A stretch of 64,000 nucleotides of DNA from Bradyrhizobium sp. SZCCHNS1050 (GTDB taxonomy: Bacteria; Pseudomonadota; Alphaproteobacteria; Rhizobiales; Xanthobacteraceae), in NCBI RefSeq assembly GCF_032484785.1, contig NZ_JAUETR010000001.1, forward strand, positions 372,001-436,000, in the 5' to 3' direction. A model generated the notes under the pieces. It saw nothing but the letters and a program-made list of their open reading frames with translations. It searched no databases and was not told the DNA's origin. Position 1 is the first letter of the stretch. Each line of letters opens with the position of its first letter. Of this stretch, positions 35,976-52,608 are shown piece after piece. The translations under genes were made by a program, and so were the position numbers.

Positions 35976-38366
35976 TTACCAGGGAAGCTTGAAGGAGTGC
36001 CACGGGTGTGGCGTGGCGCGCAGGCTGCGGAAGATCGGCTCCATCTGGGCCGACGCCACGGGCGGTGTCTGCTCGAGTGCCCGCTTGTAATCCGCGATCC
36101 AAGCCTGGTCGAGGGGCTCAATGCCGGGCGCCAACCACGTCAGCAGCACTGTATCGCCATCCGTCCATTTCACGCCGAGAATGGACGCGATATTTTCTGG
36201 CCGGAACAGGGATGCGTTCGGGAGCACGTCCGGCACACTCAAGATCTTTGCCAAGCTTCGCGAGAACAGGAAGTAGTTCAGCCCTGCTTGCTGCAGCACC
36301 TCCCGTCCCTGCTCCGGCGTTCCGAAGGTCAGGACGTCCCAGTCACGTCCCGTCGTGAAGGCCGGGAAGGTCTGCATGCGGCAATCCGGCAACATGCAGT
36401 AGCTGTGGGCGTGCATGGACCGGATCGGTACCCCAGGGCCAACCGCGGAATACGCCCCTCGAGCGCCGGGGTGGATGCCGCCCCATGGCAGGCGGCCGGG
36501 CCATCCGGTCTGGGCGACGTAGGCTTGATCGATGCTGTAGGCCCCCCGGGCAAACCGCCAAGCCTGCGACGCAACCGCGGAAAATGCGCCAGGTTGGTAG
36601 CTTTTGGCGGCGCCGTGCCACGTCGCCCACAGCACCAGCGCCGGCAGAACGAGCCCCAGCGCTTGTCGCCGACCGAAATGGCGCGACGACAGGTTGCCCC
36701 AACAGCAGGTGCCGAACGCGATCGAGACGATGCAGGTGAAGCTCGCGTAGCGGAAGAACGAGATCGGCTGCGCGCGCCCGGCTGTCGAGGTCAGCACTAG
36801 GCAGGCCAGGATCGAAATGAGGAGGAAGGCGAGCAGGACCGGGTCGCGAACAACAGCACGGCGGACTAGGAGTGCCAACGCAAAAAGGAGCACCCCACCG
36901 CCGACCAGGGGGTAGAGCAGATCCAGCCGGAGCGAATTGATCAGGAGGTCGACCAGGGGCATGCCGAACGGCATGCTGTTCGCCAGCATGCCGGTGGTGC
37001 CTTGGTGAAGGTAGATGACCCACGGCAACGTGCCGAGCTGATACAATTTCTCGACATCGGCATACTTCCAAAGAGTGAGAACGCCCTGATCGTTGATCAG
37101 ACCTGTCACGGCATAATTGATGCCGAGCAGGGAGAGCAAAGCCAGCCCGGCCGTAACCGTAAGCAGCAGACAATTGCGCGAAAGCCGCCACCTCCGCCGG
37201 AACAGCAGCAATGCGGAAAGAGTAGCAAAGACGGCGCCAAAGTAGATCGATATGGTCACGTTGATGATGACTGCGGCAACGATCGCGCAGGCCGCAGCGA
37301 CCCACCAGACGCGCTCGCCTCGCGCCAACGCGTTCGCGGTCAGCCAGATGACGGCTGCGACCAGCGCCGCGTTCAGTTCATGCAATTTTTCGAAGTCGCC
37401 CCACCCGCCATTGAGACGGTATTCGCCTTGCCCGGGCGTATGGATGTAGAGCGCGAGCCAGAGGATGACGCCGACGTGAGGCCACCAGGTCTCCGGCGCC
37501 AGTCGAGACAACAATTGGAACAAGGCAATTGACGCGACGGCAACCAGGCAGAACGTCACGAGCTGAGGCGCCAGCGGATCCGTCAGCAGCATACCGAGGA
37601 AATAGAGTCCGGCGCCCTTGGAATAATAGAAGTGGTACCAGACCTCGTTCGGCCAAAGATTGCCGCGGGCAATGACGCTTTGGAGATACGGAAAGTAGTG
37701 CAGGAAATAGTCATGGCCGCCTGCTGGATAGAGCCCCTTGACCAGCAGCAGCATCAGCAGGCTTGCACCGAGCACTGCGGTGAGACATTTCGCGACAACG
37801 GCCTCGACGCTGGTTGCGGGCGAAGGCAGCGAGCCCGGCTGCAGCGGGGCGAGACGGATCGCAAGCTCGCTCCAAGCGCAGCGAACATGTGACGTCGACA
37901 GGACAACGAGCGGCAATGTCAGCAGGACGGCGACGTACGGCGTGTACAGGCTGAGAAACCCGAGACCGAGCATCCCGAGATGCCAGACACCAGCCCCGGC
38001 GAAGAAGCCGACCGCGAGCCATTCGAGCGTGCCTGTGCCGGCCGGCCTTTCACAGCGCAACAGGCTGAGGGCCAGGCTGCCTGCGGCATGCACGATCCAG
38101 AACAGATAGAAGATGAAGACGACACGGCAGAGGTTGTAGAGGACGACAAGCGGCCCGCTGGTCGCAAAATGGGCGTGATAGACGTCGATCCACCTGAAGA
38201 AGAGAATCAGCGCCGCGTAACCGCCGACATGCAGAAGAGCGGGAGGGGACAGCCAGCGCCCGCGGACCGATGAGGGGCTCGGGGGCGAGGACGCATGCGG
38301 ATCGCGCGCCCGGCCAAGACCGGCCCAGGTATGAATCGGAACAAATAAGGTCCAACGCCTAAACAT
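35976..38366 (-). CDS. Large polytopic membrane protein of unrecognised family, paralogue A
   Basis: The 796-residue protein has about 12 or more hydrophobic segments in the first 560 residues and a soluble C-terminal part. Shared landmarks with the divergent paralogue at 38850 are LYP(A/G)GG.DF..HYFPY, EVWYHFYYSKGAGLYFLGML followed by LTDP, and C-terminal LQQAGLNYFLFSRS and GVKWTDGDTVLLTW. Aspartates and histidines in the first periplasmic-type loop resemble the GT-C glycosyltransferase plan (acidic residue plus HYFPY), so a lipid-linked sugar transferase is a possibility, but I cannot assign a family. It lacks the C-terminal cysteine-rich domain of its paralogue. It converges on the GT2 gene. 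Confidence 0.75.
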   Translation of the reverse strand: MFRRWTLFVPIHTWAGLGRARDPHASSPPSPSSVRGRWLSPPALLHVGGYAALILFFRWIDVYHAHFATSGPLVVLYNLCRVVFIFYLFWIVHAAGSLALSLLRCERPAGTGTLEWLAVGFFAGAGVWHLGMLGLGFLSLYTPYVAVLLTLPLVVLSTSHVRCAWSELAIRLAPLQPGSLPSPATSVEAVVAKCLTAVLGASLLMLLLVKGLYPAGGHDYFLHYFPYLQSVIARGNLWPNEVWYHFYYSKGAGLYFLGMLLTDPLAPQLVTFCLVAVASIALFQLLSRLAPETWWPHVGVILWLALYIHTPGQGEYRLNGGWGDFEKLHELNAALVAAVIWLTANALARGERVWWVAAACAIVAAVIINVTISIYFGAVFATLSALLLFRRRWRLSRNCLLLTVTAGLALLSLLGINYAVTGLINDQGVLTLWKYADVEKLYQLGTLPWVIYLHQGTTGMLANSMPFGMPLVDLLINSLRLDLLYPLVGGGVLLFALALLVRRAVVRDPVLLAFLLISILACLVLTSTAGRAQPISFFRYASFTCIVSIAFGTCCWGNLSSRHFGRRQALGLVLPALVLWATWHGAAKSYQPGAFSAVASQAWRFARGAYSIDQAYVAQTGWPGRLPWGGIHPGARGAYSAVGPGVPIRSMHAHSYCMLPDCRMQTFPAFTTGRDWDVLTFGTPEQGREVLQQAGLNYFLFSRSLAKILSVPDVLPNASLFRPENIASILGVKWTDGDTVLLTWLAPGIEPLDQAWIADYKRALEQTPPVASAQMEPIFRSLRATPHPWHSFKLPW

Positions 38367-38849: not shown

Positions 38850-41549
38850 ATGAAGCCCAGCTCGATGGATCTCGAAAACAAGCCATGGTCGCGTACCACC
38901 GCGGTCGCGTTTGCCGTTCTCGCCGCCCTGTTCTGGCTGGAGATCGCCTGGTTCAACCTCGTCGATCCCTATGAAAAGCACTATTTCGATGCGGGCCTCA
39001 TCATGGTGCTGCATCAAGGGGCGCGCCTGGTCTCGATGCTGCTGATGGGGTGGCTGGTCTATGCAACTGGCGCCGGCCTGCTCGCTCTGCTGCCGCCGAT
39101 CAAGTCAGGAACTCGATTGCTGGCGACCGACATCGCCCTGCTCGGCTTTGCCTTCGGATGCTTCATCTGGCACGTCGTCATGCTCGGGCTTGGCCTGGCA
39201 AGCCTGTACTACCGGCCGCTGCTCGCGGCCGTGGCCTTTGTGGTGATCGCCCTGTCCTCGCCGCACGCGGCTGCCGTCGCCGGCAAGTTTCGCGAGGCCT
39301 GGCCGCGGCTGCAGCTCCAGCGGCCCGGACGGCTCGCGGCTGTGATCGTGATGAGCTTCGTCGCCCTGTGGCTGCTGACGCTGAAATCGCTGTATCCGGG
39401 CGGCGGTGGCGACTTCTACACGCACTACTTTCCCTACGCCGTCGCGGTCCTGAAGAATCACGGGCTCGTGCCGAATGACGTCTGGTATCATTTCTACTAT
39501 TCGAAAGGCGACGGGCTGTTCTTCCTCGCCATGCTGCTGACCGATCCGATGGCGCAGCCGCTGGTGACCAGTATTTTCGTCGCCTTCGCAGCGCTCGCGG
39601 TCGGAGATCTGACCAACCGGCTCATCCCAAACTCGCTCTGGCCGCTCTGCGCGATGCTGGCTTATCTGCTCTTGAACGCCGTCAACATGAATCCGACCGG
39701 CGGAGGCGAGTTCCAGAAGTCGCACGAAGTGGTCGCCGCGTTGGTGACCCTGATGGCCTGGGCGCTTTGCCGTCACCGCACCGAGGGCGCGCCGATCTTC
39801 ATCGCGATGGCCTCCGCCTGCGCTGCGACGATCGCGATCGTCAATCTGCCAGTCGGCGCAATCCTGAGCTTCGTGTTCGCGTTACTCGGCGCTCCCGCCT
39901 TGCTGTCCCGCTCCTACCGGCGATTCTGGCAGATGTTTGCGGCCGGTGCCTTCGTGGCACTTACTGCGGCCAGCGTGCTCGCGCTCAATCAGGGGGTAAC
40001 GGGCCTCGCATCCGACCAAGCCCTCGGCGCGACGCTCAAGATCGCGGATTTCGCCCGCCTGGACCGCCGGGGCCTGCTTCCGCAGATCGTGTCCTTGGCG
40101 TGGATGCACGACAACCTCGACGATCTCGCACCGCCCTTCGGATGGGACGACATATCGAGGTTAGCAGAATATATGCGTGTCTTTTTTCTCTGGCCCTTGC
40201 TCGTCGCTCCTGGCGTTGTGCTACTGGGAGCCATCCTGAATTGGCTCCTTTTCCTTCGAAGCCGGCGCGCTCCTCGTGAGCTGGCTCATCTGGTTTTCGA
40301 CTACAACTTCGCCTTAGACTCACGCGGGTCGATAATCCGACTCTGCCTCGTCATTGGCCTTTTTGCTGTCGTTTTGACGATGAGTGGCCGCGCCCAGAAT
40401 ATCTCAGCTTTCCGGGCTAGCTCCTTCTTCGTGCCACTTCTGATTATGTTAGATGTTGCTCTGGTGGCTTGGCTCTTAAGCCTGCCGGTCAAGCAGCTTG
40501 GGGTTAGGTTAGTTCACAAGACGATACTACCCGTCGCTGGTCTCATAGGGTGCCTGATCACTTGGCAGGTTGACTACTATTGGGCACAGCAGTTCCTTGA
40601 GGGCGCCGCCAACGGCTTGCGATTACTGAGTGGTCGCTACAGTCTTGCGACGGCATATGAGCGCCATCCGCTCGGTACACTAGCCGTTGGATTAAGGCTC
40701 GGCGGTATTGAGCCCGGTACGCTCGCGGCGTCGCGGCAGTTGCCGCCCGATACGCGGATTTGGAGCACCAACGTCGATTCCTACTGCATGGTACCGCACT
40801 GCCAAGTCGAGTCCGTGGTTTCTTTCAAGATGTCCGACCGTCTGGACGAAATCCTCGGAGGATCGCCGGACCATGCCAAGCAGCTGCTGCAGCAAGCCGG
40901 CCTCAACTATTTCCTGTTCTCAACCCAGCATCGGCTGCTTGACATGCTGCCCTACAGCCAATTGTTTGATCCGAAGATCATTGGCGACTATCTCGGTCTC
41001 GCATGGACCGATGGGGCGACATTCCTGCTGACCTGGAAATCTCCCGACATCGCTCCACTGGGCGAGGATTTTCTCGAACCCTATCGTCACCGCGTCGCTG
41101 AAAAAGAATCGCCCTGGTTCCAGTTTCGCGATTTGATCCGGTACATGCAGCCGACAGTCGCCCGGCTGCGGTCAGGCAATGTCGATGTGGCTCACGCTTT
41201 CCCCTGGCGCAACGCGCCATCGTCCGGCATCCAGATCGTCGAGGCCACCTACGGCCGAAACTGCCGCTTCTTCAGACCGCCCTACCCTGGCATCAACATG
41301 TTCCGCCGCAACAATGCGGGCATCTTCATGAGAAACGAGTGCCGCGGTCGCGACCATTGCACCGTTCCCGTTTCAGTGTCGGAGATCGGCGATCCTGCCC
41401 AGGGATGCGGTAAGGATTTTTCTGTCGTCTACCAATGCGCCGGAGACTCCAAGCAACGAACCTTTGAACTTCCCGGCGAAGCTAACGGCCAAAATGTCGA
41501 GCTCAACTGTTCGCAAGCCAGCGACGCAAAGCAAAGCCGAGGAGAATAG
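38850..41549 (+). CDS. Large polytopic membrane protein with C-terminal six-cysteine lectin-like domain, paralogue B
   Basis: The 899-residue protein aligns with paralogue A over its length (SLYPGGGGDFYTHYFPY, DVWYHFYYSKGDGLFFLAML, QQAGLNYFLFSTQ, LAWTDGATFLLTWKSPDI). It then continues with about 115 extra residues. This tail has ATYGRNCRFFRPPYPGINMF, NECRGRDHC, IGDPAQGCGKDFSVVYQC and a final VELNC: six cysteines and the YGR/DP/K.F..Y.C pattern of SUEL-type galactose/rhamnose-binding lectins. The membrane part has about 12 helices. I infer an enzyme acting on a lipid-linked or extracellular glycan with a sugar-binding tail. From about 40.1 kb the codon use becomes more AT-rich than in the first part. 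Confidence 0.78.
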   Translation: MKPSSMDLENKPWSRTTAVAFAVLAALFWLEIAWFNLVDPYEKHYFDAGLIMVLHQGARLVSMLLMGWLVYATGAGLLALLPPIKSGTRLLATDIALLGFAFGCFIWHVVMLGLGLASLYYRPLLAAVAFVVIALSSPHAAAVAGKFREAWPRLQLQRPGRLAAVIVMSFVALWLLTLKSLYPGGGGDFYTHYFPYAVAVLKNHGLVPNDVWYHFYYSKGDGLFFLAMLLTDPMAQPLVTSIFVAFAALAVGDLTNRLIPNSLWPLCAMLAYLLLNAVNMNPTGGGEFQKSHEVVAALVTLMAWALCRHRTEGAPIFIAMASACAATIAIVNLPVGAILSFVFALLGAPALLSRSYRRFWQMFAAGAFVALTAASVLALNQGVTGLASDQALGATLKIADFARLDRRGLLPQIVSLAWMHDNLDDLAPPFGWDDISRLAEYMRVFFLWPLLVAPGVVLLGAILNWLLFLRSRRAPRELAHLVFDYNFALDSRGSIIRLCLVIGLFAVVLTMSGRAQNISAFRASSFFVPLLIMLDVALVAWLLSLPVKQLGVRLVHKTILPVAGLIGCLITWQVDYYWAQQFLEGAANGLRLLSGRYSLATAYERHPLGTLAVGLRLGGIEPGTLAASRQLPPDTRIWSTNVDSYCMVPHCQVESVVSFKMSDRLDEILGGSPDHAKQLLQQAGLNYFLFSTQHRLLDMLPYSQLFDPKIIGDYLGLAWTDGATFLLTWKSPDIAPLGEDFLEPYRHRVAEKESPWFQFRDLIRYMQPTVARLRSGNVDVAHAFPWRNAPSSGIQIVEATYGRNCRFFRPPYPGINMFRRNNAGIFMRNECRGRDHCTVPVSVSEIGDPAQGCGKDFSVVYQCAGDSKQRTFELPGEANGQNVELNCSQASDAKQSRGE

Positions 41550-41667
41550 CGAGACAAACCCAACGCGCTTGCCGTCGTTGCGCAACAAGACGTAGCAGCG
41601 AACTGAAGCGGAACGCCCCTTCAGCTGGCCGTACTGACGCTAGGTTCGGTGACCTTGCCCCCAAGTT

Positions 41668-42597
41668 TTATCCAGATCTGAGTTCGTTCGGGCGGTTTGA
41701 TGTGCCCATCTGGGCGGTCGTAGCGGCGGGAGCTGGCGCGGAGCTCTCGGCATAGCGCAGCGCCAGATCCCGACGCGGATTGCAGGTGGCGGCGAACTCG
41801 GATGGCGTCTTCCATCCGAGCTGGGAGTGCGGCCGAGCGTCGTTATAGTCGGTCCGCCAGCATCGGAGCGCGACGCGGGCCTGAGCAAGCGAGGTGAACA
41901 GCGTCTCGTTCAGCAGTTCATCCCGCAGGCGACCGTTGAAGCTCTCGATGAAGGCGTTCTGCATGGGTTTGCCCGGCGCGATGTAGTGCCAGGCGACACG
42001 GCTCTGATCGGTCCATGTCAGGATGGCATTGCTCGTGAGCTCGCTGCCGTTGTCGCTCACCACCATCTTGGGCTTGCCGCGCTCGGCGACCAGCCGGTCC
42101 AGCTCCCGGGCGACCCGGGCGCCCGAGAGTGAAGTGTCGGCCACCAGCGCCAGGCACTCGCGGGTGCAGTCGTCGACCACGGTCAGGATGCGGAAGCGCC
42201 GGCCATCGGTCATCTGATCCGACACAAAGTCGAGTGACCAGCGATCATTCGGGAGCAGCGGCACCGTCATCGGCGCTCGCGTCCCGATAGCGCGCTTGCG
42301 GCCACCTCTGCGGCGCACCGTGAGCCGTTCCTCCCGGTACAGCCGGAACAGCTTCTTGTGATTGACCAGGTAGCCCTCCCGCTTGAGCAGGACGTGCAGG
42401 CGACGATAGCCGAAGCGGCGACGCTCATGGGCGATCGCCCTCATGCGCTCCCGCAGCCCGGCATCATCGGCCCGGCTCGTCCGATATCTGACCGTCATGC
42501 GGCAACAGCCGATGGCTTTACACGCCCGCCGTTCGCTCATCCCGTGAACGCGCACGAGATGTGCGACAGCTCTCCGCTTCGCCGCAGGCGTCACCAC
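41668..42597 (-). CDS. IS3-family transposase OrfB (element A)
   Basis: About 309 residues from the GTG overlapping the end of orfA. It contains the HTH_21-type start ([20 protein letters not shown]) and an integrase core with DDE residues: [27 protein letters not shown] and [19 protein letters not shown], i.e. D, D and the glutamate of the FIESFNG motif. It is expressed as an OrfAB fusion by -1 frameshifting in this family. The reading frame is open and intact, so the element may be active. Confidence 0.9.
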
Positions 42598-42857
42598 TTC
42601 TTTCCCAGGAGATCCTTCAGGGCGGCATTGTCCAGCATGGCGTCCGCCAGCAGCCGCTTGAGCCGCGTGTTCTCGTCCTCCAGCGTCTTCAGCCGCTTGG
42701 CCTCCGAGACGTCCATTCCGCCGAACTTGGCCTTCCACTTGTAAATGCTGGCGTCGCTCACGCCATGCTTGCGGCAGAGATCGGCGACCGGAACGCCAGC
42801 CTCGTGCTCCTTCAAAATCCCAATGATCTGCTCTTCCGTAAAGCGGCTGCGCTTCAT
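42591..42857 (-). CDS. IS3-family transposase OrfA (element A)
   Basis: The 88-residue protein has the HTH_Tnp_1 domain ([20 protein letters not shown], then [20 protein letters not shown]) and a C-terminal leucine zipper ([20 protein letters not shown]). It binds the inverted repeats and ends in GKKW, overlapping orfB in the -1 frame. The coding region is intact. Confidence 0.92.
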
Positions 42858-43145
42858 GCTCTGGTCCTCGTTGGGCCAGAACGAACTTCAAACTGGATTA
42901 AGCCCCAGGGGCAAGGTCACCGACCGACGGCCGGCTGACGATGCTGGATGTGCGCCCGCTGTTCGAGGCGACCGATGGCGAGGCGGCCAGACAGCGGAGC
43001 CCCCCTCGCCGCAGAATGTCAAAGCGATAGCGAGCCCGAGTTGCTGGGAACGGCTCCGACGGAAGGCCCCGTGACCAGACCGGCTTCACAAGGCGTTAAC
43101 GATCTGCCACCAGGGTTGATAGTTGATTCGTGCGGGAGCCGATCG

Positions 43146-44780
43146 ATGGCGAACTACACCTTGGAAGGCGCGAAATGGGGTAACCCGACCTTCGGAACGT
43201 ACGGAGGTACCGTCACCTGGGCAGTGGACGGCACGGTTCCAGCGATCTTCATCAACTATTTGATCGCCGCCTTCGCCGATTGGGCGAAATACACCAATAT
43301 CCAATTCCAGGAAGTCGCTTCGACGGCGACATCGAACATCGACATTTCGCTGGCCAGCATCGACGGCCTCGACCAGATCCTGGCCCAGACCCAGTACTGG
43401 TACTCGGGAACGTCGTTCGTTTCGGCGACCATCACGTTCGATAGCGGAGAAGGCTGGCACTCCTCTTCCAGCAACGTCATCAGCAACGACAATGTGAACC
43501 TTTACCCCGTGGCCCTGCACGAGATCGGCCACGCCATCGGCCTTGGCCACTACAACTCGGTCCCGGCGATCATGAATGCCTATTACAATGCATCCGTGAC
43601 GGACCTGCTCCAGCCGGACATCGACGGCATCGAGGCCATCTATGGCAACGCGGTTGCTCCCTCCTACTCATTCAGCGTCACTGTTACGGCGCCGGCCGGG
43701 AGAATGGGCCCGGAGTGGCATCTGTTGGCCAGCGCGGACTATACGGGAGATGGGAACGCCGATCTCACATGGATGGACACGGCCGGAAACATCGCGCTTT
43801 GGACCATGAAGAGCGGGGCCCTCGCGGCTGCTCAAATCACCCAGGGACACATGGGCACCGAGTGGACGGCGTTTTCGACGAATGCTGATTTCAACAAGGA
43901 CGGAAAGGCCGACCTGCTGTGGACCAGCAATGGTAGTGCGGCGATCTGGGAAATGAACGGAGCGTCCCTCGCCGGTTTTGCAAGCCCCGGTGGACACATG
44001 GGCCCAGAATGGCAACTAAAGGGCGTCGGTGATCTCAATGGCGATGGCAATTCGGATCTGGTTTGGGTGAGCTCGTCGAATCAGGTTGCGCTCTGGTCGA
44101 TGAACGGAGCGGCGCTTGCAAACGCTGAGCTCTCCGATGGTCAAGACGGTAGCGAGTGGACCTTCAGTGGCGTCGGCAACTTCGACAGCAATGGAAAAGC
44201 CGACCTACTCTGGGTGAGCTCCTCCGGGGCTGTTCAGGTGTGGTCCATGAGCGGCTCACATGTGATCGGGGCCTCCACCGTGGGCCAGGCCCCTACGGGA
44301 TCGCACATCGCGGGGATCGCCGATGTGACCAAAGATGGCGTCGATGACATCGTGTGGATCGATGCTTCGAACAACGTCAAGATCTGGCAGATGAAAAATG
44401 ACAGCGTCGCCGAGGTCCTGACGCCGAGCGGCCATATGGGCACGGAATGGCAGCTGTCGAGCATCGGCGATGTGACCGGTGACGGACGTCCAGATCTGGT
44501 CTGGACAAGCGGCGGAGCGACCGCGGTCTGGAACCTGGGAGCGATCAGCTCGGTCGCCGCCGCCGTGACAGCGGACAACTTCCAGTTCGACCCCGCCAAA
44601 CTCGCCTCGCTTGCAAGCCAATCAACCTTTGACGCGGCGGGACCGCACATCGCGATGTCGAGCGATATTGATCCATACTACGCCGCCCCGACGCCGGAGA
44701 TCGGGCAGACTGGGCTTCATGATGCGCTGGACTTCACGTCCGCGTTTCTGAATTCTCACGCCCACGACTTTCTCGTCTAG
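43146..44780 (+). CDS. Metzincin (matrixin-like) zinc metalloprotease with FG-GAP/VCBS-type repeats
   Basis: From the ATG at 43146 the product has 544 residues. The N-terminal protease domain has HEIGHAIGLGHYNSVPAIMN, the HExxHxxGxxH zinc motif with the Met-turn context of matrixin/M10 enzymes. It is followed by about six repeats of about 45-50 residues, each with a D.NGDG.aDlvW-type loop (DLNGDGNSDLVWVSSSNQVA, DVTGDGRPDLVWTSGGAT). Such repeats form calcium-binding beta-propellers. No N-terminal signal peptide is seen, so type I or another non-Sec route is likely (inference). The frame is open 66 codons further upstream, but that part looks non-coding. The gene lies between IS elements and differs in character from its neighbours, suggesting acquisition with them. 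Confidence 0.82.
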   Translation: MANYTLEGAKWGNPTFGTYGGTVTWAVDGTVPAIFINYLIAAFADWAKYTNIQFQEVASTATSNIDISLASIDGLDQILAQTQYWYSGTSFVSATITFDSGEGWHSSSSNVISNDNVNLYPVALHEIGHAIGLGHYNSVPAIMNAYYNASVTDLLQPDIDGIEAIYGNAVAPSYSFSVTVTAPAGRMGPEWHLLASADYTGDGNADLTWMDTAGNIALWTMKSGALAAAQITQGHMGTEWTAFSTNADFNKDGKADLLWTSNGSAAIWEMNGASLAGFASPGGHMGPEWQLKGVGDLNGDGNSDLVWVSSSNQVALWSMNGAALANAELSDGQDGSEWTFSGVGNFDSNGKADLLWVSSSGAVQVWSMSGSHVIGASTVGQAPTGSHIAGIADVTKDGVDDIVWIDASNNVKIWQMKNDSVAEVLTPSGHMGTEWQLSSIGDVTGDGRPDLVWTSGGATAVWNLGAISSVAAAVTADNFQFDPAKLASLASQSTFDAAGPHIAMSSDIDPYYAAPTPEIGQTGLHDALDFTSAFLNSHAHDFLV

Positions 44781-44979
44781 ATCACCCCTAGCGAAGGCGA
44801 GTCGTGGCTCAAGCTGGAAAAAGGCCAGAACGCTTCCCTCCTCCCGCAATGGCTGAAACTCGCGCAATTTGTTGAGAAGCGCAGTCAACTTGCAAGCTTG
44901 CGACCGACGTAGCCTGTGACCTGCCCCTAAGAATTTCCTCCAGAACGATTTAGAGTCCGGCCTGACGAAGGACGGACAG

Positions 44980-45246
44980 ATGAAGCGAAAGCGGTTCACG
45001 GAAGAGCAGATCATCGCGGTTTTGAAGGAGCACGAGGCCGGTGCGAAGACGGCCGATCTGGCTCGGAAGCACGGGATTTCGGAAGCGACGTTCTACAATT
45101 GGAAGGCTAAATTCGGCGGCATGGACGTCTCCGAAGCCAAGCGGCTGAAGGCGCTCGAGGACGAGAATGCCAAGCTGAAGAAGCTGCTGGCCGAGCAGAT
45201 GCTCGATGCGGCCGCGCTGCGGGAGCTGCTCTCAAAAAAATGGTAA
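44980..45246 (+). CDS. IS3-family transposase OrfA (element B)
   Basis: The 88-residue HTH protein ([40 protein letters not shown]) has a leucine-zipper tail (LKALEDENAKLKKLLAEQML). It is parallel in design to OrfA of element A but a different sequence. It ends in TCA AAA AAA TGG TAA, so the stop lies just beyond an A7 slippery run. Confidence 0.92.
   Translation: MKRKRFTEEQIIAVLKEHEAGAKTADLARKHGISEATFYNWKAKFGGMDVSEAKRLKALEDENAKLKKLLAEQMLDAAALRELLSKKW
45234..45240 (+). promoter_or_regulatory. A7 programmed -1 frameshift site between orfA and orfB of element B
   Basis: Seven consecutive adenines are read as TCA AAA AAA in the orfA frame, giving the slippery heptamer A AAA AAA. Slipping back one base enters the orfB frame at ATG GTA AGG, producing the OrfAB transposase. 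This is the standard expression mode of two-ORF IS3 elements. Confidence 0.8.
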
Positions 45247-46166
45247 GGCCTGCCGCCAAGCGCGCCGCGGCGGCGCACCTGCAGGCCAAGCTGGGCCTGT
45301 CGGAACGGCGGGCCTGTTCGATCGTCGGAGCGGACCGGACGATGGTCCGCTACCGGTCCCGCCGGCCCCCCGACACCGCGCTTCGGGGCCGCTTGCGCGA
45401 GCTCGCCAGCGAGCGGCGGCGCTTCGGCTATCGACGGCTGTTCATTCTGTTGCGGCGGGAGGGCGAGCCGTCCGGGATCAACCGCGTCCATCGACTTTAC
45501 CGGGAGGAAGGGCTCACGGTGCGCAAGCGCCGCAGCCGCCGCAAGGCCTGCGGCGTCCGCGTGCCAATCCTGGTCGATGCGAGGCCGAATGCGCGCTGGT
45601 CGCTGGACTTCGTGTCCGATCAGTTCGTAGGCGGGCGGCGCTTCCGCATCCTCAACATCGTTGACGACGTCACCAAGGAGTGCCTGGGCGCGATTGCCGA
45701 CACTTCGCTCTCGGGGCGGCGGGTGGCGCGGGAGCTGACCTCGATCATCGCCCGGCGCGGCAAGCCGGGCTCGATCGTCTCGGACAACGGCACCGAGTTT
45801 ACCAGCAACGCGATGCTGGCCTGGTGCAGGGACAACGCGATCGACTGGCACTTCATCGCACCGGGCAAGCCGATCCAGAACGCCTTCGTCGAGAGCTTCA
45901 ACGGCCGGATGCGCGACGAGTTCTTGAATGAAACGCTGTTCTTCGGTCTCGATGATACCAGGCGCAGGCTCGCCGCCTGGGTTGCCGACTACAACAACGC
46001 GCGGCCGCATTCCTCGCTGAGATACCAGACCCCTGCGGCCTTTGCCGCCAACCTCACCGCAACGGGCGATCGGCTGCGCAACCCCGACCAGCTCCGCCAA
46101 TCGCCCGTTGCTCCACCCGCGCCACTCGGCGTACAACCCACCCGGACTCTAAACGCTGCTGGATGA
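45240..46166 (+). CDS. IS3-family transposase OrfB (element B)
   Basis: The 308-residue integrase-core protein has an HTH_21 part ([20 protein letters not shown]) and DDE residues in [30 protein letters not shown] and [19 protein letters not shown]. The ATG at 45240 overlaps orfA by seven bases within the A-run. The frame is intact to its end near the right inverted repeat. Confidence 0.9.
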
Positions 46167-46181
46167 AACTTCGGTGGCAGC

Positions 46182-46879
46182 TCAATCACAAGAAGCTGTT
46201 CCGGCTGTACCGGGAGGAACGGCTCACGGTGCGCCGCAGAGGTGGCCGCAAGCGGGCCCTCGGCACACGAGCTCCGATGACGGTGCCGCTGCTCCCGAAT
46301 GATCGCTGGTCGCTCGACTTCGTGTCGGATCAGATGACCGACGGCCGGCGATTCCGCGTCCTGACCGTGGTCGACGACTGCACCCGCGAGTGCCTGGCGC
46401 TGGTGGCCGACACCTCACTCTCGGGCGCCCGGGTCGCTCGAGAGCTGGACCGGCTGGTCGCCGAGCGCGGCAAGCCCAAGATGATGGTGAGCGACAACGG
46501 CAGCGAGCTCACTAGCAATGCCATCCTGACATGGGCCGATCAGAGTCGCATCGCCTGGCACTACATCGCGCCGGGGAAACCCATGCAGAACGCCTTCATC
46601 GAGAGCTTCAACGGCCGCCTGCGGGATGAAATGCTGAACGAGACGCTGTTCACCTCGCTCGGCCAGGCCCGCGTTGCGCTCCGATGCTGGCAGGCCGACT
46701 ATAACGACGCTCGGCCGCACTCCCAGCTCGGATGGAAGACGCCATCCGAGTTCGCCGCCCCCTGCAATCCGCGTCGGGATCTGGCGCTGCGCTATGCCGA
46801 GAGCTCCGCGCCAGCTCCCGCCGCTACGACCGCCCGGATGGGCACATCCAACCGCCCGAACGAACTCAGATCTGGATAA
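46182..46879 (+). pseudogene. Truncated element A transposase OrfB
   Basis: The frame encodes [20 protein letters not shown] through the integrase core ([46 protein letters not shown]). It lacks the N-terminal HTH region and orfA. A new ATG contributed by the right end of element B (46163) keeps it open, but no full transposase can be made. A few substitutions against the complete copy (for example WAD for WTD, DEML for DELL) show the copies have diverged slightly. Confidence 0.88.
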
Positions 46880-46897
46880 AACTTGGGGGCAAGGTCA
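46182..46897 (+). mobile_element. Element A, 5'-truncated second copy (opposite orientation)
   Basis: From 46182 the sequence follows the interior of element A orfB (TCAATCACAAGAAGCTGTTC) to its right terminal repeat GGGGCAAGGTCA (46886-46897). The first about 550 bp, including orfA and the N-terminal third of orfB, are missing, and element B lies exactly at the break. Relative to the complete copy at 41650 it is inverted. The arrangement indicates insertion of element B into element A followed by loss of the outer half, or recombination between copies. Confidence 0.9.
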
Positions 46898-48600
46898 CCT
46901 GGATAGTCGAAATCATGCCAGCAGCGGGCATCGCTCATCTTCGGAGTATTAATCACCTCGATAAACTCACCATACAGGCGATGTTCTGGACGATGCACCG
47001 CTCTTTCGAGGTAGTCTGCGAGAGTGTATGCGATATTCTGCAACCTCTCGAAAATTGCGTAGTCAGCATGCATCTCTTCGCAGAAGTCGACGAATGCCGG
47101 CATCTCACGAAAGTTTTCGATCTGGTATGTGAACGAGAACTTCAGCTGAGGCACGACCGTCATACGCAAATGACGGAGGAAGCGCATATTCTCGATGAAC
47201 GGCTCATACCTTCCCAAACGGCGCAATTTCTCGAACGTGACCTTCGTCGCCGCATCGATTGAGATCCGGATTGACTGGACTCGGTTGTGAATCCCTGGGT
47301 ACTTGTTCCATTCCTGCTCGCTGAACAGCGTGCCATTGGAGATAATCGCAAGCTTCACATCCGGCGCAGCTTCGTCGCTGATCATCTCCAATACTTTACG
47401 AGACGGCTTGCTCGCGAATAGCTCTCCCGCAGGATTGATGTGCAAAATTTTGGCTTTCGCCAAAAGCGGTGCAAACTTATCCTCGACGGCACGCGCTTTT
47501 GCGGTTGACTGAGACGGCTTCTCGACAATCCGCTCCGTTCGGCACGAAGGACACGAGAGATTGCACGTCTGGTCGAAAGCAAACATCACCTCCGAAGGAT
47601 GATCGAGGCGAAAGTCCTTCGTCTCCATTGCAGTCCGGATCACTTCAGGCGCATTCTCGACCCTGGTCAGAGTGTCTCTGACCATCGCTCCACAATCGAC
47701 GTGATTGCAGTATTTGTACGTCCCATCTGTCACCGACTTTCGAATATCTAGAGCCACTCGAGAATTGAGCACGCCCTCCACGGACTGGTCCATGAAGTTC
47801 CCGACTGACGTCGGCATCCAATGCCCGCAGCAAAGAAGCACCGTTCCGTCTGGCCCGATGTCGAACCGCTCGAACGGCAAGGTACAAACGAACTGCTTGA
47901 GATAGTCATTGTCATCGCCAAGGAATTTCTCGAGCCTTGGGTGAACGTCCGCACCGGCGGCTTTAAGCGCCAACGCATGCTTCGCTCCCTTGAGCAGAAC
48001 AGATCCCGGCGCTCGCACTATCGCTTGCTGAATGACATCTGCGGCTTCCTCATACCTACTTGCCTTCGCATATATTCTGCATAGTGCTAACGTCATCGCC
48101 TCGAAAATCGCCCAGCGAAACGCATCGTTTCCAGAAGTCGCCTCATAGGCGTCTACGGCGGCACGGAGCAGTCTGGACTTTTGGTCGGCAGACAATGGTG
48201 ACGCCAGATCGCCCAGCCCATACGCTGGATATCCGAAGAACGACGGATGATTAACCTCGCCCGCGCGCCGACATGGATCGTTTCTTGCAGCTCGTTGGCG
48301 CCCGTTGCCCAAGCGTAAAAGCAGCTGCAAGCTTGATAGGTGTCGAGTTGAAGCGCGCGCTCCACCCCCCGAAGCAATTGAGATCCCGCAAACGCCGGAA
48401 GCTCTGACAGCTCCCGCACAAATTGCGCCGGCCTCGTTCTGAGTGGGGCAAGTCAGAAAAGCACCAGCCCCCTCGTTGCCCTCCCCTAGGCGGACCATAA
48501 TAAAGGGGTGAAAGCCGGTTCGCTCTATCTGGTCGATGAACCCTCGATCGAACCGAGTTCCGAGATCGACGCCCCCCCGAGCGAAACTCTGGCCGCACAT
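46898..48600 (-). pseudogene. Radical SAM protein gene, truncated by IS end and with two frameshifts
   Basis: The minus-strand frame encodes a radical SAM domain with AFDQTCNLSCPSCRTERIVE (CxxxCxxC cluster). Upstream of it is a cysteine segment VLLCCGHWMPTSVGNFMDQS with YCNHVDC, SPASM-like but N-terminal. The last native residues are CWHDFDYPG; the frame then runs into the terminal repeat of element A and stops inside it. In the 5' part the protein-like reading switches frame twice: NEAGA continues in another frame as QFVRELSELPAFAG at about 48415, and GARAR returns as GEVNHPSFFGYPAYG at about 48265. The true start is unclear; an ATG at 48600 is one candidate. Likely non-functional unless these shifts are sequencing errors. 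The original substrate is unknown. Confidence 0.75.
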
Positions 48601-48841
48601 CTCGGCCAGACCACGCAAAGCGGGATAAACGGGCCAGAAGGTTCACCGTACAATCTCCGGAACAAAAAATGCCCCGAGGTCAACCCTCAGGCTAGAAAAA
48701 GCTCAACTATTCAACCGTACCAAGCGCTCAACGTCAAGCGGTGCAGGCACAGATCCGCCACTTCCCAGCCCAAATGTTGCCGGCATGCTTCACCCTACGC
48801 GCACGACGCCCTATAGGTAGCACAGCTGGTTTGGGGGAGAG

Positions 48842-50613
48842 ATGCACACGATGAACGCGCCCGCTGTCGATAAACGATTTGCAGGTCAGCCCACGACTAT
48901 AGAGGACCCGCTCATCGACCGGCTCCCCCCTTTACCAGCTTTGACCGGACTACGATTCTTTGCTGCCTTTTTCATACTGTTCGCGCACGCGACAGACTGG
49001 ATTGCAACATTTCAGAATTACAATATTCGGGACAAGCTTTCGTTTGTCGCAATGTACGGCATGCCGCTATTCTTTGTTTTGAGCGGCTTCGTGATCCACT
49101 ACAACTACGCGAGACTTTTTGGTACTGTTGGAACTGCACAAGCCGTGCGTGAATTCGCGACAGCGAGATTCGCACGGCTATTCCCCCTCTACCTTGTTCT
49201 TCTCTTGTTTTCGGTGTTTGCGGACAACTTCCTTGCCAAGACCTATGGTAGGACTGACCTACTCCTTGCCATCTTGGCCCACTACTTCAGCCTCACGCAA
49301 TCCTGCGTGGTACAACATCTATGAAGGGCAGTCCATAATAGACTGGCTGTCTCCACTTTCCTGGTCGATTTCGACCGAGACGTTTTTCTATCTCGCGTAT
49401 ATTGGGGTTGCGTTTCTGAGCTTTCGATTACGGAGTAGCCGCGCCGCCTTCTGGGCTCTCATCACCTTCTGCTGCGCGAGCATTTTGATGCTCGTTGCCT
49501 CCCGCTACTTCCTGGCTGAGCTTCTTGGCTTGGCTCGCAAAACCAAACCGGACTACATCGACTTGAACGATCGTTTCTCAAGTTCGTTCTACCGCTGGCT
49601 TTTTTACTTCTCACCGTATGTGCGTATTCTCGAATTTGTAACCGGCTGCCTCACATCGCATTTGATCATACGTCTGAGGCCGCTCCAATGCTCAGCGGCC
49701 GAAGCCTGGCTTCGGGAGGTCGGACTGGCGGCAGCCTTTCTACTTCTCGTGGGTGCAGGTTTGGTGAAGGTTGGCTATGGTCACGAGACCGTTGTCGCTG
49801 CTTACGTACAGCACCTTTCGAACAATTTCGTTTGCGTCCCTTCGATAGCGTACATCCTCTTTTACGTCGCGCGCTACGATACGCGGTTTACACGATTGTT
49901 GTCCTCCCCGACCCTGGTTGCTCTTGGTGAGGCAAGTTACTCAATCTACCTCGTTCACACCTGGACTTTAAGGGTTTTCCTCAGGCCCGAACCTGCGCTG
50001 AACTGGACCTTTGCTTTGGATACGGTTGGCCGAATTACGTTCGGCATCGCATTTACCCTTGTCGTCTCTTATGCAACGTATCAACTGATCGAGCGTCCCA
50101 GCAGATCCTGGCTGCGGGCGCGTCTTGGAAGAATCAGAGCCACTCAAGCGTTCCCGCCCCGCCAGCCAGGCGTTTCTGGACCTCACATTCCGATTAAGCC
50201 GGCCCTGGTCGTAACTATGCTATTGCTGGCGGTTGTTGTCGGAGGCCAAGCAGCCAAATCTGAAGTACCTTGGAGGATGCTTAGCCGTTTATGGTCCGGT
50301 GACCGCCCGGAGATCGAGGTGCTATCCGCAAGCTACGGATTGAACTGCAAGGGCACAATAGGAGCATCAATCCCGGTCAAACTTGGCAACGTGACCCCAA
50401 GTCTCGCTCGTTCATGCAATCAGCGCACCCGATGTGAGTTTTCGATCTCCACATCGCGCCTCGCGCGATCCAGCGAATGGCTGCGGAAAGGAGTTTTCAG
50501 TTACCTATAAATGCTCTAGATCAGAGACAATCAACTCACTCCTTATAGAAGCTGAGGCCGACGGCAAGCGTGCCATTCTTGATTGCGCTGCATCGAGTCA
50601 AGCTGCTGAGTGA
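48842..50613 (+). pseudogene. Acyltransferase-3 (OafA-type) with C-terminal lectin-like domain, two frameshifts
   Basis: Frame 1 (48842-49324) encodes the start of a membrane O-acyltransferase (LTGLRFFAAFFILFAHATDW, GMPLFFVLSGFVIHYNYARL). The match switches at about 49300 to the frame containing YNIYEGQSIIDWLSPLSWSI and YVRILEFVTGCL, which stops at 50510. After a second one-base shift at about 50465 the sequence continues as DPANGCGKEFSVTYKC and ends ILDCAASSQAAE before a TGA at 50611-50613. This restores a complete six-cysteine domain (YGLNC, RSC, TRC, NGC, YKC, LDC) like that of the membrane protein at 38850. It would acetylate or acylate a surface polysaccharide. GC content is visibly lower than in flanking genes, indicating horizontal origin. 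As read, it is inactivated. Confidence 0.75.
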
Positions 50614-51074
50614 AACTGCGGCTATTCCGGTTGCCCATACGGTTGCCGGAGATCACGTCGAAAGCCGTCATCTGCCAGCCCGGCGCTGTGCTGAACCGCG
50701 CCCGCACATGCGTCGCCGTCGCCACGGCGTTTCCCTGGCGCAACCTGCCCGTCAACGGCATAGACATCATCGAGGCGAGCTACGGTCGGAATTGCCGCTT
50801 CTTCAAACCACCCTACCCCGGCATCAACATGTACCGGCGCAACAACGCGGGCATGTATCTGCGCACCCAATGCCGAGGTCGAAGCCACTGCAGCGTTACA
50901 GTCGAACTGTCCGAGATCGGAGATCCCGTCCAGGGCTGCGGGAAGGATTTTTCCGTTGTCTATCAATGTGAGGAAGACAGCAAACGGCGAACCTTCGAAC
51001 TACCAAGTGAGGCGAATGGCAAGATGGTCGAACTCGATTGTTCGGTGGCCGACGAGGAAACGTCGAAAGAATAG
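50610..51074 (+). CDS. Nearly free-standing six-cysteine SUEL-like lectin domain protein (possible C-terminal fragment)
   Basis: The 154-residue frame opens with a GTG overlapping the acyltransferase TGA. From about residue 40 it matches the tail of the 899-residue membrane protein: AFPWRNLPVNGIDIIEASYG, PYPGINMYRRNNAGMYLRTQ, CRGRSHC, IGDPVQGCGKDFSVVYQC, VELDC. All six cysteines are conserved, with the YGR and K.F..Y.C features of galactose/rhamnose-binding lectins. The first about 40 residues are arginine-rich without a signal peptide, so it is either a cytosolic lectin-like protein or, more likely, the surviving 3' end of another large membrane protein. The start is uncertain. Confidence 0.6.
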   Translation: MKLRLFRLPIRLPEITSKAVICQPGAVLNRARTCVAVATAFPWRNLPVNGIDIIEASYGRNCRFFKPPYPGINMYRRNNAGMYLRTQCRGRSHCSVTVELSEIGDPVQGCGKDFSVVYQCEEDSKRRTFELPSEANGKMVELDCSVADEETSKE

Positions 51075-51231: not shown

Positions 51232-52521
51232 TCAGCCGGTCGTCGCAACCTGAAGATCGGGACGCACACGCGGCGAGATCGTCAGCCAGCGCCTGACGAT
51301 CCGCCGCGCTGGCATCTCGATCAGAAACCACAGCACGAGCGACAGGCCGATGATCGCCGCAAGCGTGATCGAGATCTGGGGGAGGACCGCCGCCCAGATC
51401 TGATGATCGGTCACCGCCGGCACCTCGTACCGGAACGCATTGATCACAACCATGTGGCACAGATAGATCGAGTAACTCGCCTCTCCCGCCAAGACGATCG
51501 GTCGGGCCGACAAGACCCTCACGATGACGTTGTTGTATCGGATGCAGCCGAAGATGATCACGGCGAGGAATGGCGCGAAGCCGAAGTTCATGTGCAACGC
51601 TACGATGAGCGCGGACGTGCTGGTCCTCCCGAACATGACGTACTGCAACCCGGCGGCCCCCAGGATGGCTCCGGTCATGAGCCAGAAGCCAAAACGGTTC
51701 TCGCGCTCGTTCGACGGCGGCAGGACCCGCAGCAGAGCCGAGGCCAAGCAGCCCAGGGCGAATTCAAGCACCCGGACATAAGGCGAAAAGTAAGCCAGCC
51801 AGCGGTAGATGCCATCCTGGCTTTCGCCGGCGATCGGGCCGAACTGAGTGACACCATAGGCGGCGATCTGCGGTGCCCGCAGATTGACGAACGTGACGAG
51901 TGCAAACGCTGCAACGCAGAACGCGGCGATGGCGATCAGCAGCGCTCGCGGAGTTCGCAGCAGCGCCATCGCAAGGCAGATCACCGGAAAGCAGAGATAG
52001 AAGAACCACTCGGTACTGATCGACCAGGATACGGCTGGCACCAACCCGTATTGATAGACCAGCGCATTGCCATCAATGGTCTTGTAGAGCCAGGTCTGGG
52101 TCAGCGTCAGGTAATAAGGCAGTGCTTCCAGCCGCTCCAGCTTGAACTGGTGGTAGCCGAGCTTCATCGACAGATCGAGGCAGAGAAAGAAGAGATAAAG
52201 CGGGTAGAGCCTGGCGAAGCGCGCGGCAAAGAAATTCCACAGCCCCGTCGGCGTGGACATCGCGTGGCCATAGTTCATGTGAATGACGAAGCCGCTCAGG
52301 ACAAAGAACAAAGTCATGCCGGCGCCGGACAGGCTTCCGACGACGCTCAGCAGCGTATGCAGAATCGAGCCGCTCCCCGGCACCTTGACCATCATCGCGA
52401 AAATGTGGCTGACGACGACCGTCAACGCCGCGATGAATCGCAGCCCGGTCAGACTCGGTACGTTCTCCTTAATCACTCCGCCCCCCGGCTGGCCCCCTGC
52501 GCCGGACGAGGCGCACACCAT
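51232..52521 (-). CDS. Acyltransferase-3 family membrane O-acyltransferase (OafA/NodX type)
   Basis: The 429-residue protein has about ten membrane helices and the family pattern VPSLTGLRFIAALTVVVSHI, then GAGMTLFFVLSGFVIHMNYG and FAARFARLYPLYLFFLCLDL. The catalytic arrangement (histidine in helix 1, R.aRLYPLY) is intact. WSISTEWFFYLCFPVICLAM is the other conserved segment. It would transfer acetyl or another short acyl group from the cytoplasm to a sugar on the outer side. The ATG at 52521 is used here; the frame opens four codons earlier at a TTG. Unlike the acyltransferase at 48842, it has no lectin tail and no frameshift. Confidence 0.88.
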   Translation of the reverse strand: MVCASSGAGGQPGGGVIKENVPSLTGLRFIAALTVVVSHIFAMMVKVPGSGSILHTLLSVVGSLSGAGMTLFFVLSGFVIHMNYGHAMSTPTGLWNFFAARFARLYPLYLFFLCLDLSMKLGYHQFKLERLEALPYYLTLTQTWLYKTIDGNALVYQYGLVPAVSWSISTEWFFYLCFPVICLAMALLRTPRALLIAIAAFCVAAFALVTFVNLRAPQIAAYGVTQFGPIAGESQDGIYRWLAYFSPYVRVLEFALGCLASALLRVLPPSNERENRFGFWLMTGAILGAAGLQYVMFGRTSTSALIVALHMNFGFAPFLAVIIFGCIRYNNVIVRVLSARPIVLAGEASYSIYLCHMVVINAFRYEVPAVTDHQIWAAVLPQISITLAAIIGLSLVLWFLIEMPARRIVRRWLTISPRVRPDLQVATTG

Positions 52522-52608
52522 ACTTGGTTTCAAGTTAATTCATGGCATGAGGCAGATCAACCGCAAACCGGACGTCAGGCTTCGCGGTAGACCGCCGCTG
52601 TTTTCCGG

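Follow-up and report, generated by a model that had tools for sequence, protein, structure and literature searches.

What is the six-cysteine module that recurs in a 64,000-nucleotide stretch of the Bradyrhizobium sp. SZCCHNS1050 genome (contig NZ_JAUETR010000001.1, positions 372,001 to 436,000; hereafter, the window), and how does it relate to the lectins it resembles? An initial annotation described a SUEL-like lectin domain of about 110 residues at the ends of an 899-residue membrane protein and an acyltransferase-3, and almost alone in a short open reading frame (ORF). All three copies are present, on the plus strand (41220-41513, 50304-50589 and 50751-51044), and keep six cysteines in the same order. 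The module measures 98 residues, however, and one element of the cysteine pattern ascribed to all copies, C.G..C, is absent from the acyltransferase copy, which has CNQRTRC instead. Sequence profiles and structural modelling indicate with high confidence that the module is a circularly permuted form of the rhamnose-binding lectin (RBL) fold, with strands in the order 3-4-5-1-2. As modelled, it has the fold of these lectins but not their canonical strand order, 1-2-3-4-5.

The 899-residue polytopic membrane protein is encoded by an intact ORF (38850..41549, plus strand). Hydropathy analysis places 12 hydrophobic segments within residues 17-570, followed by a more polar C-terminal part, and the module occupies residues 791-888. 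The sole Pfam match of the whole protein at an E-value of 1 or better is SUEL_Lectin (PF02140; residues 791-863, 21.3 bits, E 3.6e-4). The isolated first and second modules gave E-values of 8.1e-6 and 1e-5, and the first piece of the acyltransferase copy 0.24. In a PDB search with the first module, RBL lectins came out on top (SUL-I, E 8e-11), in agreement with Pfam, and the proposed resemblance to galactose/rhamnose-binding lectins was thus borne out. At 26.2-26.6 bits, the isolated modules nevertheless score below the PF02140 gathering cut-off of 31.4 bits; the kinship with SUEL domains holds, while the domain is most probably not a standard SUEL domain but a permuted one. Our module profile A1 recognised the two intact modules with E-values of about 1e-44 and the acyltransferase pieces with 1.9e-14 and 5.8e-13; these scores are not independent, since A1 was built from the intact modules and a 95% identical copy of the broken pieces.

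The Pfam alignment of the window modules stops at residue 73, and the sixth cysteine lies outside the match. The aligned head (module residues 1-73, 41220..41438, with YGRNC ... CRGRDHC ... GDPAQGCGK ... YQC) covers SUEL_Lectin positions 8-80 and would comprise RBL strands 3-5 and the helix. The tail (41439..41513), which contains the sixth cysteine and a conserved Glu, would hold the relocated strands 1 and 2 (KQRTFELPGEANGQNVELNC). An AlphaFold2 model of the first module has strands at residues 4-11, 46-50, 67-73, 79-84 and 92-96 and a helix at 34-41. In alignments, animal lectin domains open with a hairpin of the form (C)EG..L.L.C; the module tail reads ..LPGEANGQNVELNC. When the first member was un-permuted, Pfam coverage grew from positions 8-80 (26.3 bits) to 1-80 (29.1 bits), still below the cut-off.

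From 19 aligned modules we built profiles in native order (A2), with tail and head exchanged (A3), and with shuffled tails (A4); tails aligned as separate rows misaligned and were therefore excluded. A3 outscored A2 on all 13 RBL-type PDB sequences, and in the alignments shown the match then started inside the hairpin. With A4, 10 of the 12 listed PDB sequences scored below native, the other two being 8suf (+0.3 bits) and 6ska (+0.8 bits); the rice galactosidase dropped off the list of matches. The C-terminal domain of that protein (rice beta-galactosidase 1, 5iaz), which belongs to an unrelated enzyme and, unlike the module, has canonical strand order, was matched end to end by the canonical-phase model (residues 2-93). 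Applied directly to the native tandem chain of 5h4s, the permuted profile gave a weak result: one repeat scored 29.9 bits, and 35.3 bits together with the next hairpin, against a median of 31.0 and a maximum of 35.5 bits in 500 shuffled-hairpin controls. Distant relatives, which include weak profile matches, have canonical tail spacing (for example, REGKYLSLDC). Their tails fit a loose hairpin pattern in 11 of 11 cases (shuffle mean 0.04) and a strict one in 7 of 11 (0.002), both patterns having been chosen after the tails were seen. Members of the main subfamily have a longer turn, and only 2 of 81 proteins come near the canonical spacing.

Those 81 proteins came from a search for short proteins, limited to 0.55-1.75 times the module length, and their ends coincide with the borders expected of a permuted unit. 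A median of 34 residues precedes the module and a median of 1 follows it (range -31 to 48); the chain ends -2 to 8 residues from the module end in 76 of them. A single hairpin pattern matches 64/81 protein ends and 0/81 upstream stretches. The tandem array of locus L008 likewise begins at strand 3 and finishes at strand 2 (alignment A6, the basis of model 2, excluded L016, L008:3716-3901 and L008:4001-4189). In PF02140 scans of 296 and 398 genomes, the hits in open frames (G000, G207, G108, G782, G1344) were read by eye as permuted in five genomes out of five; a further hit, in G1159, contains internal stop codons and was not counted among the order readings.

The module cysteines, at positions 15, 41, 47, 63, 73 and 97, can be placed on the published disulphides of an RBL domain (latrophilin 1: 41-71, 50-128, 83-115, 96-102). 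Pairs 50-128, 96-102 and 83-115 map to C97-C73, C41-C47 (same five-residue spacing) and C15-C63, whereas Cys41-71 has no equivalent, so that the six cysteines allow at most three pairs where a canonical RBL has four. A chain beginning at strand 3 and closing with strands 1 and 2 could thus still form three disulphides, which would link strand 2 to strand 5, the helix to strand 4, and loop 1 to loop 2. Two weak relatives from a distant secreted subfamily (L037, L038) keep the permuted order and have lost both loop cysteines, a natural two-disulphide version; the joint loss matches the prediction, as C15 would pair with C63. Compared with SUEL/RBL domains (PF02140; CSL3, 2zx0; SUL-I, 5h4s; latrophilin-1 RBL, 2jx9), the module shares the five-strand plus helix fold, the YG motif, the loop 2 sequence GDP..G..K, the strand 2-strand 5 and helix-strand 4 cysteines and, in large part, the putative sugar-contact positions. 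It differs in starting at strand 3 with strands 1-2 last, in being bacterial, in having six rather than eight cysteines, with the Cys41-Cys71 pair missing and the loop-2 cysteine shifted by three residues, in a shorter loop 1 in most members and, within the main subfamily, in a longer turn between strands 1 and 2.

Conservation was measured over 99 rows (the 19 of A2 plus 80 of the 81 short proteins, a few of them near-identical) and over 91 rows left after removal of those at least 90% identical. All six cysteines are kept in 91 of the 99 and in 84 of the 91; over the 99, the tail cysteine is conserved in 94. The sugar contacts of latrophilin are Glu42, Tyr63, Gly117 and Lys120; altering Glu42 or Lys120 greatly weakens binding or removes it (PMC2430599). 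At the corresponding positions the full set has Y in 98 rows, G in 64, K in 87 and the tail Glu in 84, with Y, K and E together in 77 and all four in 57. The filtered set gives similar figures (Y 90, G 59, K 81, E 77; all four 53), and the intact module of the window has all four residues. From the alignments, E87 of the module is likely the counterpart of Glu42; the equivalence stays unproven because the turn that holds E87 is longer in the main subfamily than in animals.

Homology, permutation, modular spread and conservation of the contact positions were all observed in silico. The best overall explanation, which we consider likely, is that a permuted SUEL/RBL domain acts as an extracytoplasmic glycan-binding tail. 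The module would fold outside the cytoplasm, and since the sugar-contact residues are largely kept, glycan binding is likely; with some reserve, we lean towards sugar binding as its function. We infer that the tail may target its carrier protein to the carrier's glycan acceptor. In the window it would keep the 899-residue protein, and an intact acyltransferase, near a surface polysaccharide that contains rhamnose or galactose. Outside the window, it would do the same for SGNH-type hydrolases or work on its own, secreted or anchored in the membrane.

Only the copy in the 899-residue protein gene is intact; the other two in the window are damaged. The acyltransferase-3 (PF01757) gene that ends in a module (48842..50613, plus strand) is not one open frame (ORFs 48842-49324 and 49119-50510) and has breaks near 49.3 and 50.46 kb. 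PF01757 matches its first piece with an E-value of 6.6e-12, and hydropathy places a hydrophobic segment before the module. The second break interrupts the module (50304..50589), which gives two separate profile matches and is readable only as pieces in two frames, 50304-50466 and 50464-50589. A profile search of the contigs of the source genome (7.62 Mb, 6 contigs) found four module copies in all; the fourth, L001, lies on a 1.66-Mb contig inside a near-duplicate acyltransferase gene. Window positions 48806-50717 and this duplicate are 94.9% identical over 1,912 bp (blastn), and the duplicate has the first break but not the second. The sharing of the first break (window 49260-49330) by both copies means either that it predates the duplication or that the site is somehow read through.

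Homology to the acyltransferase duplicate stops at 50717, and from 50727 on the sequence is homologous to the 3' end of the 899-residue protein gene; the short ORF (50610..51074, plus strand) therefore joins two duplicated pieces. Some 36 codons of this ORF fall in the flank past the acyltransferase's last frame, and another part matches 41196-41513 at 76% over 320 bp (blastn). The module of this chimeric remnant (50751..51044) is 74% identical to that of the 899-residue protein. Having no signal peptide recognisable by eye, the ORF is a poor example of the near-solitary module it had been taken for, and we rejected it as evidence for a free-standing lectin; genuine cases occur in other genomes.

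Insertion sequences of the same type stand near both acyltransferase copies, directly 3' of the duplicate and, in the window, past a radical-SAM/SPASM-like gene that is divergent from the acyltransferase at both places (L050:12051-13865 for the second). The window transposase ORFs at 41.7-42.9 and 45.0-46.9 kb are presumably of IS3 type. Two of them, 41668-42919 and 46163-46879, are 96-97% identical to L050:8581-9804, adjoining the second acyltransferase-module gene. Such elements possibly were the vehicle of the acyltransferase-module duplication.

This state of the locus makes it rather probable that the module is partly debris in the window, with only the 899-residue protein gene functional and the other two copies left as duplication remnants among insertion sequences. 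The doubly broken acyltransferase with its shared first break, the junction at 50717/50727 and the nearby transposases all speak for it, and it is compatible with a permuted glycan-binding tail. It leaves the 899-residue protein and the relatives unaffected, and four metagenome proteins (P0016, P0026, P0046, P0053) lend weak support to an intact fusion: by eye, they show the same hydrophobic-segment-to-module junction as the acyltransferase, although Pfam finds no acyltransferase domain in any of them. P0023, at one point grouped with proteins of this junction type, was rejected on rereading.

The module might also be a permuted RBL fold whose ligand is a protein or lipid, as has been argued for the RBL domains of animal receptors, with the tail aiding assembly of the surface-glycan machinery. 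The incomplete contact set (all four residues in 57 of 99 rows) fits this reading, as does a radical-SAM/SPASM protein from a glycosyltransferase cluster (L016, 3113-4321) that retains the module yet has lost most of its cysteines. High conservation of Y, K and E, even across otherwise unrelated carriers, speaks against it, and we regard it as rather unlikely. The cysteine loss in L016 looks as if its module had turned cytoplasmic. A further account, an ordinary SUEL domain now lacking its first two strands and followed by an unrelated C-terminal extension, would agree with Pfam alignments that run from positions 6-8 to 80 only and end before the extension, and with the rarity of near-canonical turns in the main subfamily; it is disfavoured by the tests of score, borders and structure, and we give it very little weight. 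A convergent disulphide-rich beta domain unrelated to lectins is least credible of all: the Pfam score is under threshold and a Foldseek search with the permuted model gave no match, but the PDB search puts RBL lectins first and the profile gains on un-permuting.

Beyond the source genome's own setting, the scan of genome contigs gave 12 loci, in Rhizobiales, Xanthobacteraceae, Rhodobacteraceae, Maritalea, Prosthecomicrobium, Caballeronia, a gammaproteobacterium, three genomes labelled Deltaproteobacteria or Syntrophobacter, a member of the Myxococcales, and Sorangium; the relatives span Alpha-, Beta-, Gamma- and Deltaproteobacteria and myxobacteria. With the source genome included each time, the module was found in 3/296 genomes of the family (PF02140), 4/397 of the order (A1), 14/385 of the class (A2) and 4/398 of the phylum (PF02140; one hit with internal stop codons). 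Two relatives are on plasmids, both from Caballeronia, and none was found in viral contigs (A1 patterns) or in phage records. Of the short free-standing relatives, 9/81 bear a PF02140 label, and some relatives pass the cut-off (L008, 49.4 bits for the whole protein; G782, 35.2). Permutation may be part of the reason for the missing labels but not the whole of it, because the un-permuted window module also stays under the cut-off; a profile built on the permuted unit finds these relatives.

Architectures were read from open frames and Pfam, with signal peptides and anchors judged by eye. The proposal that the module is appended to unrelated proteins proved right: it is carried by membrane proteins, among them one of 719 residues with a module tail (L006), by SGNH-type hydrolases, where it again forms the tail (P0004 and P0005 from metagenomes, L028 from a genome), by a protein with a PAN domain (L010) and by the radical-SAM/SPASM protein. 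For the hydrolases, Lipase_GDSL_2 scores are 31.6, 34.8 and 25.8 bits, respectively, and only P0005 passes the cut-off of 32.9; L028 is 35% identical to P0004 over the whole length. Other carriers are a large repeat protein (L014), a Myxococcales protein with further sequence C-terminal of the module (L009) and the protein with three tandem modules (L008). Single-module proteins are common outside the window, either membrane-anchored (L007, L011) or secreted or lipoprotein-like (L012, L013, L017 and the Prosthecomicrobium hirschii protein L015). L006 is significantly similar to the 899-residue protein in the module only, and is 33% identical to a module-less 613-residue protein of the source genome. 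The 899-residue protein also has a module-less relative, a 796-residue paralogue in the window (35976..38366, minus strand; 33% identity, residues 32-755 vs 54-769; no SUEL match). The tail is therefore separable, and the paralogue is a natural tail-less control.

The enzyme part of the 899-residue protein has no match in Pfam or PDB; going by its topology, it may be GT-C-like. An acyltransferase-3 in one open frame lies at 51232..52533 (minus strand; PF01757, E 6.9e-26) and lacks a module, with no SUEL match. The radical-SAM/SPASM-like neighbour (46792..48618, minus strand) matches PF13186 and, weakly and under its cut-off, PF04055. A Rosetta-stone link through this gene was rejected, as its product is not similar to the module-fused radical-SAM protein of L016. 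A matrixin-type metalloprotease (PF00413) with FG-GAP repeats, at 42948-44780, is flanked by the transposase ORFs.

Like the AT3-SGNH surface O-acetyltransferases (OafA type), the broken acyltransferase combines an acyltransferase-3 core, an extra hydrophobic segment and a C-terminal domain, but here the permuted RBL module stands in place of SGNH and the frame is broken. By its title, a 2010 study by Montanier reportedly concerns two families of carbohydrate-binding modules related by circular permutation; compared by title alone, those are calcium-dependent families, unlike the window module. As far as our literature searches show, the permuted bacterial RBL domain is new as a variant: no report of a permuted SUEL/RBL domain was among the matches listed. 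In the accessible part of PMC4444583, circular permutation is named only in a reference on other modules, and that of PMC11131199 is unrelated to RBL permutation. A C-terminal SGNH domain that follows an 11th membrane helix is described as the commonest fusion of acyltransferase-3 proteins, SGNH and alanine racemase being the two commonest partners, and the word 'lectin' is absent from the main text as far as it was accessible (PMC9558356).

If the present reading is true, it adds a natural circular permutation within this lectin class. More speculatively, there may be a widespread, largely unannotated bacterial superfamily of permuted RBL lectins, used interchangeably on surface-polysaccharide enzymes as tails that direct them to glycans, with envelope L-rhamnose as native ligand; the canonical animal and plant order would have come from tandem permuted arrays, or the other way round. 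Most known RBL lectins are from animals, plants and protists, and bacterial envelopes commonly contain rhamnose. The natural ligand of the animal lectins is disputed, rhamnose being rare in animals (PMC2430599). A bacterial permuted form would, if confirmed, give the RBL fold a plausible natural ligand, and the module offers a means of testing how the acyl and glycosyl enzymes of the cell surface locate their polysaccharide.

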